From Flavobacterium aquicola (GTDB lineage: Bacteria > Bacteroidota > Bacteroidia > Flavobacteriales > Flavobacteriaceae): DNA of 64,000 bases. Where the stretch lies: the NCBI RefSeq assembly GCF_003385115.1, contig NZ_QUNI01000001.1, positions 558,001-622,000 on the forward strand. Reading direction: 5' to 3'. The position numbers and the translations under genes are program-made. Positions 1,075 through 40,341 of this stretch are shown here, in pieces. Below the pieces are notes generated by a model. That model was not told the DNA's origin, did not search any database, and was given only the letters and a program-made list of their open reading frames with translations. Within the stretch, counting starts at the first letter, position 1. Every line of letters begins with the position of its first letter.

Positions 1075-2298
1075 ATGCAAGCAAACGATTTACTACACTT
1101 AGCAGAACAATTTGGAAGTCCACTTTATGTGTATGATGCAGAGAAAATACAATCCCAGTATAATCGGTTAACAAAGGCATTTTCAAAGGTTGCCAATTTA
1201 CGCATCAATTATGCAATGAAGGCATTATCTAATGTCGCAATTCTTCAGTTATTGAGAGACTTGGGATCTGGATTGGACACTGTATCTATACAAGAAGTTT
1301 TGTTAGGTTTACACGCTGGTTATGCACCAGAAAAAATATTTTACACACCAAACGGTGTTTCTTTAGAGGAAATTGAAGAAGTACACGCATTGGGAGTGCA
1401 AATCAATATTGATAACTTATCCATATTGGAGCAGTTCGGTGCAAAACATCCGCACGTGCCGGTTTGTATCCGTATTAACCCGCACGTAATGGCGGGCGGA
1501 AATGCTAATATCTCAGTAGGTCACATCGATAGTAAATTTGGCATCTCTGTACATCAATTACCTCATTTAGTACGTATCGTTGAGAACACTAATATGAATA
1601 TCGTAGGTATCCATATGCACACTGGTTCTGATATTTTAGACATCGAAGTATTTTTATATGCTGCTGAAATTTTATTTGATGCTGCAAAAAACTTCAAAAA
1701 CTTAGAATTTTTAGATTTCGGAAGCGGATTTAAAGTTCCTTACAAAAAAGATGATATTGCTACTGATATTGATGAATTAGGAAAAAAACTTTCAAAAAGA
1801 TTCAATGCTTTCTGTGTAGAATATGGTAAAGATTTGACTTTAATATTTGAACCTGGTAAATTCTTGGTAAGCGAAGCAGGATTCTTCTTGGCTAAAGTAA
1901 ACGTTGTTAAACAAACAACTTCTACAGTATTTGCAGGAATTGACAGTGGCTTCAATCACTTGATTCGACCAATGCTTTATGGTTCATCCCATTATATAGA
2001 AAATATCTCTAATCCAAAAGGAAAAGAGCGTTTTTATTCAGTTGTTGGATATATTTGTGAAACAGATACATTCGCAACCAACAGAAGAATAGCTGAAATT
2101 AAAGAAGGAGATATCCTGTCTTTCCGCAATGCAGGAGCTTATTGCTTCTCAATGTCTTCCAATTACAATTCAAGATACAAACCAGCTGAAGTTCTATGGA
2201 TGAATGGTCAAGGATATCTAATCCGTGCTCATGAAAAATTCGAGGATTTGCTTCAAAATCAAATTCCGCTGCCTGTAGAAACAGCTGCTACAGTTTAA
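1075..2298 (+). CDS. lysA: Diaminopimelate decarboxylase
   Basis: PLP enzyme that decarboxylates meso-diaminopimelate to L-lysine, the last step of the DAP pathway; cytoplasmic. At 407 residues it has the normal LysA length. The PLP lysine is K49 in NYAMKA. Other family motifs are HMHTGSD, FGSGFKVPY (glycine-rich phosphate site) and EPGKFLV. YICETDTF corresponds to the substrate-contacting Cys-Glu motif of fold-type III decarboxylases. Arginine and ornithine decarboxylases of this fold are related, but overall similarity and the absence of extra domains favour LysA. It stands alone, with its own promoter and a shared downstream terminator. Confidence 0.93.
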   Translation: MQANDLLHLAEQFGSPLYVYDAEKIQSQYNRLTKAFSKVANLRINYAMKALSNVAILQLLRDLGSGLDTVSIQEVLLGLHAGYAPEKIFYTPNGVSLEEIEEVHALGVQINIDNLSILEQFGAKHPHVPVCIRINPHVMAGGNANISVGHIDSKFGISVHQLPHLVRIVENTNMNIVGIHMHTGSDILDIEVFLYAAEILFDAAKNFKNLEFLDFGSGFKVPYKKDDIATDIDELGKKLSKRFNAFCVEYGKDLTLIFEPGKFLVSEAGFFLAKVNVVKQTTSTVFAGIDSGFNHLIRPMLYGSSHYIENISNPKGKERFYSVVGYICETDTFATNRRIAEIKEGDILSFRNAGAYCFSMSSNYNSRYKPAEVLWMNGQGYLIRAHEKFEDLLQNQIPLPVETAATV

Positions 2299-2308
2299 TA
2301 AAATTAAA

Positions 2309-2345
2309 AAATCCCGATACTTATCAAGTTTCGGGATTTCTTTTT
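2309..2345. terminator. Bidirectional terminator lysA / cytochrome c
   Basis: Inverted repeat AAATCCCGA (2309-2317) with TCGGGATTT (2331-2339). It is T-rich on the plus side and A-rich on the other, and lies between two convergent genes. Confidence 0.75.
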
Positions 2346-2359
2346 ATATTCTTTTCAAA

Positions 2360-3325
2360 CTAATTCACAAATTTCACTACGCTATTTTTGATCGGTTTTA
2401 TTGTTTTTAAATAAGCATAAATCGCTTTTAAATCCTGCTCTTTCATTCCGCCGTACATTGTCCATGGCATAACGGTATTAAAATTTCCTTTACTGACTTT
2501 AGCCGAAACATACGAACTATCTGTATAAGATTTAAAGCGTTTCACAAAATCTTCCTCAGACCATTTTCCAATCCCTGTAACTTCATCCTGAGTAATATTT
2601 GATGAAAGTGCAGTACCTCCTGAAACCATAGGAAACTCAAAACCACCAGCCAATTCCATTCCGGCAATCGGTTTTCCTTTTTCCTGTTTGGAATGACATT
2701 CTGCACAAGAAGCTGCGTTAAACAGGTAACCGCCGTAAGCAACAGCATCACTTTCATCTGGTTTCTTCGAAAAATGAGGCTCTTTCGGAATAGTATTAAT
2801 TATAAAATTCATTGGGAAATCAGCCTTTGATTCAGGAACTATATTTTCAATAGGTTTTAAGCTTCTTAAATACACAATAATTGATTCCAGATCTTCTTTA
2901 TCCATCTTCCCAAAACGAGGGTGTGGCATTACAGGAAATAATGCTCTTCCGTCCTTAGCTACTCCGCTGGCAATTGCTCTTAAAACCTCTCCATCGGTCC
3001 AATCGCCAATACTGGAAGGCGTAATATTTTTAGAATAAAAACTGCCTGGAAAACCAAATCTCTGATCAAAAACTTCGCCTCCTTTTCCGAGAGTTCCTTC
3101 AACCAATGGACCCGAAAATTCATTCCAATTTCTGGTAGAGTGACAGTCAATACAGACGCAGACATTGTTAGCCAAATATTTCCCCCGCTCTAATCGGCTG
3201 GCGGACGATTTTATAGTAAGATATTCTGTCTCACCAACATTCGGCAAAGCCAATTTAACGTACAGTAAAACTGCAGTAACTGTAACAACTAAAAACAGTA
3301 AAATTCCTTTAATAATTTTCTTCAT
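2360..3325 (-). CDS. Membrane-anchored diheme cytochrome c
   Basis: Periplasmic electron-transfer protein with two c-type haem sites. One hydrophobic segment (residues 5-25) serves as signal or anchor. Haem motif 1 is C58-I-D-C61-H62 and haem motif 2 is C207-A-E-C210-H211. The two halves look like two cytochrome c domains, each with methionines downstream that could be axial ligands (near residues 133-141 and in the MPWTMYGGM segment). It resembles the cytochrome subunit of periplasmic dehydrogenases, but no dehydrogenase lies nearby, so the partner is unknown. An extra Cys (C56) sits two residues before motif 1. It is monocistronic. Confidence 0.85.
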   Translation of the reverse strand: MKKIIKGILLFLVVTVTAVLLYVKLALPNVGETEYLTIKSSASRLERGKYLANNVCVCIDCHSTRNWNEFSGPLVEGTLGKGGEVFDQRFGFPGSFYSKNITPSSIGDWTDGEVLRAIASGVAKDGRALFPVMPHPRFGKMDKEDLESIIVYLRSLKPIENIVPESKADFPMNFIINTIPKEPHFSKKPDESDAVAYGGYLFNAASCAECHSKQEKGKPIAGMELAGGFEFPMVSGGTALSSNITQDEVTGIGKWSEEDFVKRFKSYTDSSYVSAKVSKGNFNTVMPWTMYGGMKEQDLKAIYAYLKTIKPIKNSVVKFVN

Positions 3326-36764: not shown

Positions 36765-38954
36765 TTACTTCGTTAAAAGCAATTCTCTGTACTTAGTTAA
36801 AGTCCATAATTCATTATCGACTAGTAACTCCAATTTATCACAATGATTCCTAATGATTTCAAAATACGGTTTTACATTATTGCAGTATGCTTCGGCCATA
36901 GCCTGCGCATCTGTCAAAGTATTGGCTTTTTTTCTTTCTTCGGTCATTTCTTCTACTTTGGAATTGATACCTTCAATATGTCCTGAAATCTCTTTTATCA
37001 AAATAATCTGTTCTTTTGCAATCGATTCAAATTCAGAGCCAAAGATGTTTTTTAAACCTTTCACATTTTCGATCAAAGTATTTTGATATTTGATAGCGAT
37101 AGGAATCACATGATTTTTAGAAATATCACCTAAAACTCTGCCTTCAATTTGAATTTTCTTAGTATATTCCTCCAATTCAATTTCATAACGGGCATGCAGT
37201 TCAACCTGATTCATAATACCCATTTCGCCAAATAATTCAACAGCTTGTTTAGACGCTCTCGCTTTCAGAGCTTCTGGAGTGGTTTTAAAATTACTCAAAC
37301 CTCTTTTTGCTGCTTCATTTTGCCAAGCTTCACTATAGCCGTCTCCTTCAAAAAGTATTTTTTTGGACTGTTTGATATATTCTCTCAGCACATTAAAAAT
37401 AGCATCATCTTTCTTCATGTCTTTTGACTCGATTAAAACATCTACTTCATTTTTAAAATCTTTAAGCTGCTTGGCCACAATGGTATTCAATGTAGTCATT
37501 GCATTAGAACAGTTTGCAGACGAACCCACAGCTCTGAATTCAAATTTATTACCCGTAAAAGCAAATGGAGAAGTTCTGTTTCTATCAGTATTATCCAAAA
37601 GTACATCTGGAATTTTACCCACAACATTAAGTTTAAGATCTGTTTTTTCTTCTGGAGATAATTTTCCGGTAGAAACCCCTTCTAATTCTGCTAAAACTTT
37701 AGTTAACTGCCCTCCGATAAAAACTGAGATAATTGCAGGAGGCGCTTCATTGGCACCCAATCTATGATCGTTGCTTGCCGTAGCAATAGAAGCTCTTAGC
37801 AGCGCTTCATAATCATTAACAGCTTTGATCGTATTAATAAAGAAAGTTAAAAATTGCAGATTAGTCATAGGTGTTTTACTAGGACTCAGTAAGTTAACAC
37901 CTGTATCTGTAGATAATGACCAGTTATTGTGTTTACCGGAACCATTGACCCCTTTGAATGGTTTTTCATGGAACAACACTTTAAAATCATGACGTTCTGC
38001 CACTTTCTGCATCACATCCATCAATAAACAGTTATGATCGACTGCAAGATTCGCTTCTTCAAAAATAGGAGCAAATTCAAATTGATTTGGTGCCACTTCG
38101 TTATGACGTGTTTTTACTGGTATCCCCAATAAAATGCATTCCTGTTCCAAATCTCTCATATAGGTTAAAGCTCTCGTTGGAATAGAGCCAAAGTAATGGT
38201 CATCCAGCTGCTGTCCTTTAGCTGAAGTATGCCCCAATAAAGTCCTGCCAGTCATAATAAGATCGGGACGGGAATTTGCCAGCGATTTGTCTATCAAAAA
38301 ATACTCCTGCTCCCAGCCTAACGTAGCAGTTACTTTTTTTACGTTTTTATCAAAGTATTTACAAATTTCGGTAGCTGCTTCATCCATTGCCGATAAAGCA
38401 CGCAATAATGGAATTTTATTATCTAAAGCTTCACCTGTATAGGAGATAAAAATAGTTGGAATACATAAAGTCGTACCAAATATAAAAGCTGGAGAGGTAG
38501 GATCCCAAGCGGTATATCCTCTTGCCTCGAATGTGTTTCTAATTCCTCCGTGCGGAAAACTCGATGCATCCGGCTCCTGCTGCACCAATTGTGCGCCTCC
38601 AAATTTTTCCAGCGGGTCGCTTCCGTCATACGAAGTTTCAAAAAAAGCATCATGCTTCTCTGCCGTAGTTCCTGTAAGCGGCTGAAACCAGTGTGTATAA
38701 TGCGTAACTCCTTTATTTAAAGCCCATTCCTTCATTCCCATGGCAATATAATCTGCCAGTTTTCTATCTATTTTAGTTCCAAATTGAACTGCTCCCTGCA
38801 CGGCTTTAAAAGCATCTGAAGTCAAATATTGCTTCATCGCTTTATCATTAAATACATTAGATCCAAAAAGTTCTGATTTTCTTCCAGATTCCTGAAAATC
38901 TATTAACTTTCTATTAGAAGCTTCTCTTAAAGCTTGAAAACGAATTGATGACAT
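36765..38954 (-). CDS. glnN: Glutamine synthetase type III
   Basis: ATP-dependent glutamine synthesis from glutamate and ammonium. At 729 residues, with the starting segment RFQALREASNRKL, it is the large dodecameric type III enzyme found in Bacteroides relatives. Active-site stretches seen include ATLGWEQEYFLID, RHNEVAPNQFEFAPIFEEAN, the ATP-site GSGKHNNWSLSTDTGVNLL and RTSPFAFTGNKFEFRAVGSS. The C-terminal third (about 580-729) is a type III-specific helical region. It is divergent from the type II-like gene at 39328, and the two share a 373-bp control region. Confidence 0.95.
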   Translation of the reverse strand: MSSIRFQALREASNRKLIDFQESGRKSELFGSNVFNDKAMKQYLTSDAFKAVQGAVQFGTKIDRKLADYIAMGMKEWALNKGVTHYTHWFQPLTGTTAEKHDAFFETSYDGSDPLEKFGGAQLVQQEPDASSFPHGGIRNTFEARGYTAWDPTSPAFIFGTTLCIPTIFISYTGEALDNKIPLLRALSAMDEAATEICKYFDKNVKKVTATLGWEQEYFLIDKSLANSRPDLIMTGRTLLGHTSAKGQQLDDHYFGSIPTRALTYMRDLEQECILLGIPVKTRHNEVAPNQFEFAPIFEEANLAVDHNCLLMDVMQKVAERHDFKVLFHEKPFKGVNGSGKHNNWSLSTDTGVNLLSPSKTPMTNLQFLTFFINTIKAVNDYEALLRASIATASNDHRLGANEAPPAIISVFIGGQLTKVLAELEGVSTGKLSPEEKTDLKLNVVGKIPDVLLDNTDRNRTSPFAFTGNKFEFRAVGSSANCSNAMTTLNTIVAKQLKDFKNEVDVLIESKDMKKDDAIFNVLREYIKQSKKILFEGDGYSEAWQNEAAKRGLSNFKTTPEALKARASKQAVELFGEMGIMNQVELHARYEIELEEYTKKIQIEGRVLGDISKNHVIPIAIKYQNTLIENVKGLKNIFGSEFESIAKEQIILIKEISGHIEGINSKVEEMTEERKKANTLTDAQAMAEAYCNNVKPYFEIIRNHCDKLELLVDNELWTLTKYRELLLTK

Positions 38955-39163
38955 ACCTATATATTAAAAATTAACATCCATTGAATAAACACATACAAAT
39001 GTAAAATATTCTGCTTTACAAATAATTAGTGAATAAATTATATTCTAAAATTCACCTAGATACGACACAAAAAAAACTCTAACACCTTGATTTTTTAGTT
39101 ACAGTAATAAAATTCTTAATTTAAATTTAATATCAAAAAAATATGAATTACGAATTTATTCAT

Positions 39164-39210
39164 TATACCCCTCTAAAATTATAATTTTTCAAATATACCC
39201 CTCCTAAAAT
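39164..39210. promoter_or_regulatory. Duplicated motif between glutamine synthetase genes
   Basis: TATACCCCTCTAAAAT at 39164-39179 and TATACCCCTCCTAAAAT at 39194-39210. The two starts are exactly 30 bp apart, close to three helical turns, so a protein could bind both on one face. A looser CACCCCCCAATTTTA lies near 39249. These C-runs stand out in an AT-rich gap. The rest of 38955-39327 shows only the plus-strand promoter. Confidence 0.5.
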
Positions 39211-39282
39211 GAAGTAATATCAAAAATTTAAAAGACCGAAATAAAAAGCACCCCCCAATTTTACGACATGAGCAATTTATTT

Positions 39283-39290
39283 TATATTTG
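39283..39290 (+). promoter_or_regulatory. -7 element of type II glutamine synthetase gene
   Basis: TATATTTG, a perfect TAnnTTTG, 37 bp before the ATG. The -33 position holds only TTTTA, which suggests dependence on an activator; the duplicated motif lies 73-119 bp upstream. Confidence 0.6.
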
Positions 39291-39327
39291 CATTCAGAAA
39301 AACAAAAAAAAATAAATTATCAATATT

Positions 39328-40341
39328 ATGGCTAAAATTAAATTAGAATACCTTTGGTTAGATGGTTATGAACCAACACAAAACTTAAGAAGTAAAACTA
39401 AAGTTGAAGAGCACGAAAACTTTCAAGGAACTTTAGCAGAAATCGGAAACTGGTCTTTTGATGGTTCATCTACAAGACAAGCTGAAGGTGGTTCATCTGA
39501 CTGTTTATTAGTACCTGTTGCGATTTATCCAGATCCAACTCGTATCAACGGTTATTTAGTAATGACTGAAGTTATGAATGCTGATGGTACTGCTCACTCA
39601 TCAAATGGTAGAGCAACTATCGAAGATGATGGAGATTTCTGGTTTGGTTTCGAACAAGAGTATTTCATCATGGATACTAAAACATTATTACCATTAGGTT
39701 TCCCTATTGGCGGTTACCCTGCTCCACAAGGAATGTACTACTGTTCAGTAGGTGGAAAAAACACACACGGAAGAAAATTAGTTGAAGAGCATGCTGATCT
39801 TTGTATCGCTGCAGGTATCAACTTTGAAGGAATAAATCAAGAGGTTGCTTGTGGACAATGGGAATTCCAATTGTTTGCTCAAGGAGCTAAAAAAGCGGGT
39901 GATGAAATCTGGGTTGCTAGATATTTATTGGATCGTTTAACTGAAAAATATGGTTACTATATTGAGTACCACCCAAAACCACTAGGAGATACTGACTGGA
40001 ATGGTTCTGGAATGCACGCTAACTTCTCTAACAATGTATTAAGAACATGTGGTTCTCAAGAAATTTACGAGAAAATCTGTGAGGCTTTCCGTCCTGTAAC
40101 TGCTGAGCATATTGCTGTTTACGGAGCTTACAATGACCAACGTTTGACTGGCAAACACGAAACTGCATCTATCCACGATTTCTCTTATGGAGTATCTGAT
40201 AGAGGATGTTCAATCCGTATTCCTTTAATGACTGTTCAAAAAGGATGGAAAGGATGGTTAGAAGACAGAAGACCAGCTTCTAACGGTGACCCATACAAAA
40301 TTGCTGCTAGAATTATCAAAACTGTAAATTCAGCTTTGTAA
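39328..40341 (+). CDS. Glutamine synthetase, type II-like
   Basis: A compact glutamine synthetase of 337 residues. The type II (eukaryote-like) signature stretches are present: YLWLDGYEPTQNLRSKT, NWSFDGSSTRQAEGG, FGFEQEYFIMD, GINQEVACGQWEFQ, WNGSGMHANFSN and TGKHETASIHDFSYGVSDRG. All metal and substrate regions look intact. A second ammonium-assimilating enzyme beside type III is unusual in a free-living bacterium; they could differ in ammonium affinity or in regulation. It has a strong downstream terminator and its own promoter. Confidence 0.93.
   Translation: MAKIKLEYLWLDGYEPTQNLRSKTKVEEHENFQGTLAEIGNWSFDGSSTRQAEGGSSDCLLVPVAIYPDPTRINGYLVMTEVMNADGTAHSSNGRATIEDDGDFWFGFEQEYFIMDTKTLLPLGFPIGGYPAPQGMYYCSVGGKNTHGRKLVEEHADLCIAAGINFEGINQEVACGQWEFQLFAQGAKKAGDEIWVARYLLDRLTEKYGYYIEYHPKPLGDTDWNGSGMHANFSNNVLRTCGSQEIYEKICEAFRPVTAEHIAVYGAYNDQRLTGKHETASIHDFSYGVSDRGCSIRIPLMTVQKGWKGWLEDRRPASNGDPYKIAARIIKTVNSAL

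Follow-up and report, generated by a model that had tools for sequence, protein, structure and literature searches.

A conserved pair of palindromic sites between two divergent glutamine synthetase genes suggests a tandem nitrogen-assimilation operator in Flavobacteriaceae

Two glutamine synthetase genes diverge from a gap at 38955–39327 of the window, the 64,000-nucleotide stretch of the Flavobacterium aquicola genome that was analysed (NCBI RefSeq assembly GCF_003385115.1, contig NZ_QUNI01000001.1, positions 558,001 to 622,000). The genes and the features between them are as follows.

36765–38954, minus strand: type III glutamine synthetase (GSIII) gene, with GSIII_N and Gln-synt_C domains
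38996–39003, minus strand: predicted GSIII −7 box, TACATTTG
39166–39187, plus strand: third, upstream site (first copy of the word repeated in the gap), centred at about −118 relative to the predicted GSII start; a C-run in only 3 of 50 relatives
39196–39217, plus strand: distal conserved site (second copy of that word), a half-degenerate palindrome centred at about −88 relative to the predicted GSII start
39249–39270, plus strand: proximal conserved site, with a C-run at 39251–39256; centred at about −36, with the distal site 53 bp away
39283–39290, plus strand: predicted GSII −7 box, TATATTTG; predicted start about 39295 by the −12 to −5 position rule (from excerpted text of PMC9723704)
39328–40341, plus strand: GlnII-like glutamine synthetase (GSII) gene (GlnII model), proposed target of the site pair

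A first-pass annotation of this DNA had described the two genes as divergent type III and type II-like glutamine synthetases. The domains of the minus-strand gene bear out the first assignment; for the second, the GlnII model is the top match of the 39328–40341 product, though at 363 of 500 bits it is under the cut-off. The description of a plus-strand −7 element without a good −33 was correct, as TATATTTG is present and a search 17–23 bp upstream of it revealed no TTG. Starts were predicted at 12 bp past the first base of TANNTTTG; in the excerpted text of the Flavobacterium psychrophilum study, the −7 box occupies −12 to −5 (PMC9723704). The GSIII −7 box in the gap of this strain lies about 190 bp from the closest conserved site. 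A search with the gap found no similar plasmid record.

The annotation had also drawn attention to a C-rich word repeated within the gap, and the repeat is exact: TATACCCCTC occurs at 39164–39173 and 39194–39203, with 30 bp between starts. That the word stands out is true in part. The exact word is rare genome-wide, with just two further places in the 5.12 Mb genome, both of which we take to be the start of 16S rRNA genes read antisense. A lone word is nonetheless weak evidence, as window counts were near expectation (3 occurrences with one mismatch versus 1.7 expected).

Related gaps divided the two copies from each other. Our sample consisted of 50 gaps upstream of GSII orthologues, out of 52 genomes with such an orthologue (the two left out were G050 and G044, the latter close to a contig end). 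The second copy was kept across most of these gaps, but the first was not. The first copy appeared as a C-run in three gaps only (this strain, L007 and L028), and L005, with a GSII protein 100% identical to that of this strain, reads TATACCTCTA at its place. The annotation had proposed that the copies at 39164 and 39194 act together as a dimer array choosing between the two enzymes. Both copies are exact, their phase is identical in the three gaps having them, and an AAAATT core persists at the place of the first copy in relatives. Against this, the count of three in 50 and the reading in L005 make such a unit very improbable, and we dropped it. The GSIII promoters of two-synthetase Flavobacterium genomes also speak against a common switch for the two enzymes of this strain, since 45 out of 49 (L012 was excluded, having no GSIII in its piece) lacked a site with a score of at least 8 in the 120 bp adjoining the start, using a matrix that, here as in the window scan, the further matches and the promoter geometry below, was trained partly on the classes scored. 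Other Flavobacteriaceae do suit a shared switch, with a site pair between divergent GSIII and GSII genes in 22 out of 70 loci. The more general idea of a regulator bound as a dimer array near nitrogen genes held up better, as the conserved pair described next has the look of such an array, but the 30-bp phase did not survive.

The conserved unit of the gap is a different pair, made up of the second copy and a C-run at 39251–39256. This proximal C-run, which reads CACCCCCC from 39249, was absent from the first-pass annotation. Two C-runs of at least four bases, spaced 52–54 bp apart, were present in 44 out of 50 gaps, compared with a mean of 0.002 in shuffles and a maximum of one promoter in any of 500 rounds. 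The exact pair was missing from six gaps (L015, L016, L043, L048, L050 and L053); with a looser score, all 50 gaps exceeded ten shuffles each. The 39196/39249 pair is the highest-scoring double site of the 64-kb window, at 16.2 on the partly class-trained matrix, with the next separate place at 10.1. Both sites are half-degenerate copies of the palindrome TACCCCTA-N6-TAGGGGTA.

The same elements recur at other genes within the genus. GSIII promoters of 20 GSIII-only genomes carried them, several in the form CCCCTA-N6-TAGGGG; GSIII-only here means GSIII without a GSII hit in a possibly incomplete assembly, and the 20 genomes were picked from a longer list. The exact palindrome was found in 24 out of 121 Flavobacterium genomes, and the reversed pattern in one out of 121. 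These 24 loci faced GSIII (13), an OmpL-like porin (6), amtB (1), glnK (1), NAD synthetase (1) or nothing related (2). Within the genus, 4 out of 11 glnK and 45 out of 56 amt upstream regions beat shuffles. By eye, the spacers between the sites of amt, porin and glnK promoters often contain a ATnATAAAAATnA-like core near the middle, which might serve as a bend or as a third point of contact. The NAD synthetase-like gene lies behind an exact palindrome in Flavobacterium psychrotolerans (L099:1501-1518), the sole such case seen.

Beyond the genus, the palindrome is found predominantly in front of nitrogen genes. A scan of GTDB contigs with the pattern ACCCCTAWWWWWWTAGGGGT returned at least 118 stretches, and among the matches listed, 85 out of 118 had a core nitrogen gene facing the palindrome within 450 bp. 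We counted glnK, GSIII, GSII, glutamate synthase, amt and alanine dehydrogenase as core nitrogen genes. The remaining stretches among the matches listed had only a porin (6), only NAD synthetase (1) or none of these genes (26); at least 14 of these 26 belonged to other phyla, and some others ended at the end of the piece. Taking the GTDB matches listed together with an order-level sample (143 loci), the facing genes were glnK in 45, GSIII in 29, alanine dehydrogenase in 12, glutamate synthase in 9, porinA in 9, porinB in 7, amt in 7, GSII in 6 and NAD synthetase in 1. In the order sample itself, 26 out of 395 genomes had the palindrome and none out of 395 had the reversed control. We included the OmpL-like porin among the targets because it often adjoins glutamate synthase or glnK-amt; the porin may have a tie to nitrogen of its own.

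The spacing of the pair was also retained in these distant loci. Among the matches listed and the order sample, a second site 52–54 bp away was present in 88 out of 112 loci with a facing target, compared with 8 out of 31 others. Here the second site was the best within 110 bp, the matrix excluded the tested loci, and spacing was not selected for.

R1, a model of the double site built from sequence alone, extended the pattern across Flavobacteriaceae. Within the genera of this family, 59 out of 60 had a match at E ≤ 0.1 and 50 out of 60 at E ≤ 0.001. The best loci fetched with R1 lay at the genes named above in 29 cases out of 30, as did 37 of 40 further matches hand-picked from a longer list (the exceptions were L392, L394 and L400); for one of these 40, L384, our own partly class-trained matrix score detected no pair. 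At the phylum level, with strict filters, at least 20 out of 198 genomes had a match at E ≤ 0.001, 16 of them in the family. R1 also matched GSIII of G137, an order-level relative, and the palindrome faces GSIII in Empedobacter and, in exact form, in Bacteroides fragilis as well. In B. fragilis (L257:1327-1346), a weak second site with a score of 6.0 lies 52 bp from the palindrome. The palindrome and weak second site in this species suggest that the system may reach into Bacteroidales.

Where a −7 box could be found, the sites took up defined positions relative to it, as scored with the matrix trained partly on these same classes. In GSII promoters, the site centres lie at about −36 and −89 (box in 34 out of 36), and in glnK promoters at about −38 and −91 (box in 33 out of 67 upstream regions), with similar centres for porinA (box in 6 out of 36) and AmtB_A (10 out of 32). 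The GSIII site is centred at about −49 (box in 102 out of 104). In the AmtB_B class of amt genes, the site is at about +5 in 4 out of 5 cases. Boxes were found in 2 out of 16 alanine dehydrogenase and 2 out of 19 glutamate synthase upstream regions, and in few or none for porinB. We interpret these centres as a constant spacing between sites, with GSIII and the glnK class differing by roughly one turn in their register to the promoter. The −33 position falls inside the proximal site in both GSII and glnK promoters.

This geometry bears on whether the sites activate or repress. Tandem activators typically have one site near −38 and another some 53 bp upstream of it, and an activator would fit dimer sites in tandem at five turns, with the proximal one in place of the missing −33 and followed by a good −7 box. 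Alternatively, the same sites may be repressor operators that keep the genes shut under plentiful nitrogen, with a pair of dimers at 53-bp spacing that would obstruct the −33 region, or the start in the case of GSIII, perhaps with a small loop. The overlap of proximal sites with the −33 region would fit a repressor, as would two features downstream: a second G-run (three or more) near +8, just past the predicted start, in 15 out of 20 GSIII-only promoters, and the AmtB_B site near +5. However, the GSII, glnK and porin promoters have no −33 TTG and so look weak when unaided, and their position near −38 with a partner upstream is a layout typical of tandem activators. Repression suits the GSIII and AmtB_B layouts better; as a general account of the sites, we consider it less likely than activation.

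The palindromes could also act in RNA, as hairpins or terminators, or be C-rich words present by chance. A sequence such as CCCCTA-N6-TAGGGG is able to fold, and one exact match (L111) lies directly after a tRNA and before a T-run. However, the GSII, glnK and porin sites are upstream of the predicted start, the leader at 39296–39330 had no predicted fold, and there was no Rfam match; we rejected an RNA element. Chance is hard to reconcile with a fixed spacing and a target set that exceed shuffles and reversed controls, and we regard this whole family of explanations as extremely unlikely.

Several known nitrogen-control and activator systems share features with the gap. The cyanobacterial regulator NtcA, of the CRP family, controls glnA, amt and PII genes from a dimer site near −41 that replaces the upstream box. 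The flavobacterial arrangement is similar in placing a dimer site where the upstream promoter box would be, beside a sigma-70-type downstream box, but its sites are paired 53 bp apart, and none of the 6 matches to the NtcA box GTA-N8-TAC in the window fell within 38955–39327. In Escherichia coli tandem class III CRP promoters, one site is near −41.5 and the other lies some 52 bp upstream of it. The gap pair appears to follow the same plan of symmetric sites of about 22 bp, roughly five turns apart, with the proximal one on the upstream box, but the half-site here is CCCCTA, and the CRP box TGTGA-N6-TCACA had no match in the gap with two or fewer mismatches. TnrA and GlnR are dimeric regulators of glnA and amt promoters in Firmicutes; among the matches listed, their box TGTNANAWWWTNTNACA gave only 3-mismatch matches in the gap, and its 236 occurrences in the window are at chance level (225 expected). 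NtrC acts with sigma-54 in nitrogen control of glnA and glnK-amtB via paired palindromes, and paired palindromes at glnK-amt and glutamine synthetase genes are likewise what we see here. The flavobacterial promoters differ in bearing a sigma-A box, and the sigma-54 −24/−12 element TGGCAC-N5-TTGC had no match in the gap with three or fewer mismatches. In the excerpted text on F. psychrophilum, sigma-54 promoters are tied to envelope stress and motility (PMC9723704). With their boxes absent or at chance level, we rejected the NtcA, CRP, sigma-54 and TnrA/GlnR boxes as explanations of the gap.

We also looked for a candidate regulator near the sites. No regulator gene recurred among the genes facing the palindrome in the matches listed. 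Within 8 kb of palindromes, an Lrp-family gene was present in 14 loci at a median distance of 5 kb and a BlaI-like gene in 5 loci at about 1.1 kb, both names being our own recognition from sequence. Both look like ordinary neighbours, and we set them aside as the regulator. The genome of this strain has four HTH_Crp_2 (CRP-type) matches over the Pfam cut-off, which are candidates with no tie to the sites; L439, the one of the four that was scanned, scored 47.5 bits versus an NtcA cut-off of 245.

Taken together, we propose that the gap contains a tandem operator of a Flavobacteriaceae nitrogen-assimilation regulon, through which a dimeric regulator, most likely an activator, governs GSII, and we assign this reading a probability of roughly 0.62. 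It builds on what the compared sequences contain: the sites with their symmetry and spacing, the genes they face, their position relative to any −7 box found, and the GSIII–GSII shift described below. A paired site before many nitrogen-assimilation genes points to a nitrogen-control system, and the target list suggests nitrogen as the signal. Each 22-bp, two-fold symmetric site would hold one dimer, and two dimers would sit 52–54 bp, or close to five helical turns, from each other. At about −36, the proximal site would stand in for the −33 box, with the distal site at about −89, and these tandem activator dimers would switch GSII on under nitrogen shortage. In relatives, targets would include glnK-amt, amtB, the glutamate synthase/porin locus, alanine dehydrogenase, and GSIII where it is the sole glutamine synthetase. 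A single protein may bind all of these sites, activate the genes and sense nitrogen.

Published work on nitrogen control in Bacteroidota offers partial comparison. In the excerpted text of a study of Prevotella ruminicola, non-limiting ammonium raises transcripts of the glnK-amtB-asnB and glnN-gltBD clusters (PMC5552732). Genes of these kinds thus respond jointly to ammonium within the phylum, but the direction of the response counts against activation on shortage (PMC5552732). The words "promoter" and "motif" are absent from the main text of that paper (PMC5552732), and we found no description of the motif or of such an operator in open-access literature on nitrogen control in Bacteroidota.

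Site distribution suggests that control has shifted between GSIII and GSII. Of the GSIII-only genomes, 14 out of 20 had a site with a score of at least 8 no more than 120 bp from the GSIII start, versus 4 out of 49 genomes with both enzymes, compared with 6 out of 1000 shuffles, again on the matrix trained partly on the classes scored. All four of the two-synthetase genomes with a GSIII site have short gaps (189–234 bp). We infer that an ancestral operator was shared, and that it later became that of GSII in Flavobacterium with longer gaps and that of GSIII where GSII is absent. More broadly, Flavobacteriia, and perhaps more Bacteroidota, probably have their own global nitrogen regulator, whose operator, a tandem of palindromes spaced by five turns, would differ from the NtrC, NtcA, GlnR and TnrA operators, and its sites would have moved between glutamine synthetases, from a shared divergent operator to GSII or GSIII alone. 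Such movement would be a clear example of regulation passing from one isoenzyme to another. The operator, target list, geometry and spacing rule make nitrogen control directly testable in these Bacteroidota, which are abundant in the sea, soil and gut.

Across the genome of this strain, R1 matched amtB2 (E = 6.7e-5), amtB1 (0.0098), DNA upstream of a porin gene (0.17) and GSII (0.24). The GSII pair is weak genome-wide, ranking as the tenth distinct place, and five of the places that outrank it, though not amtB1, lie next to or within unrelated genes. An Lrp-type gene (L442:1225-1683) is divergent to the alanine dehydrogenase gene (1895-3019) on contig C6, where the best site is weak (8.6); alanine dehydrogenase genes in other genera have strong double sites. 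A single-palindrome scan with 3 mismatches was uninformative (44 sites versus 94 in the reversed control), and so was the bare ACCCC-gap-CCCC pattern (18 matches versus 15), though GSII and amtB2 were among its matches. C-rich repeats at C5:187403-187559, C7:90397-90586 and C10:154605-154748 also matched the gap pattern. The strongest double site of the genome (C4:327769-327833, E = 5e-6) lies between small genes encoding 105 and 172 aa without a Pfam match, which are perhaps additional regulon members.
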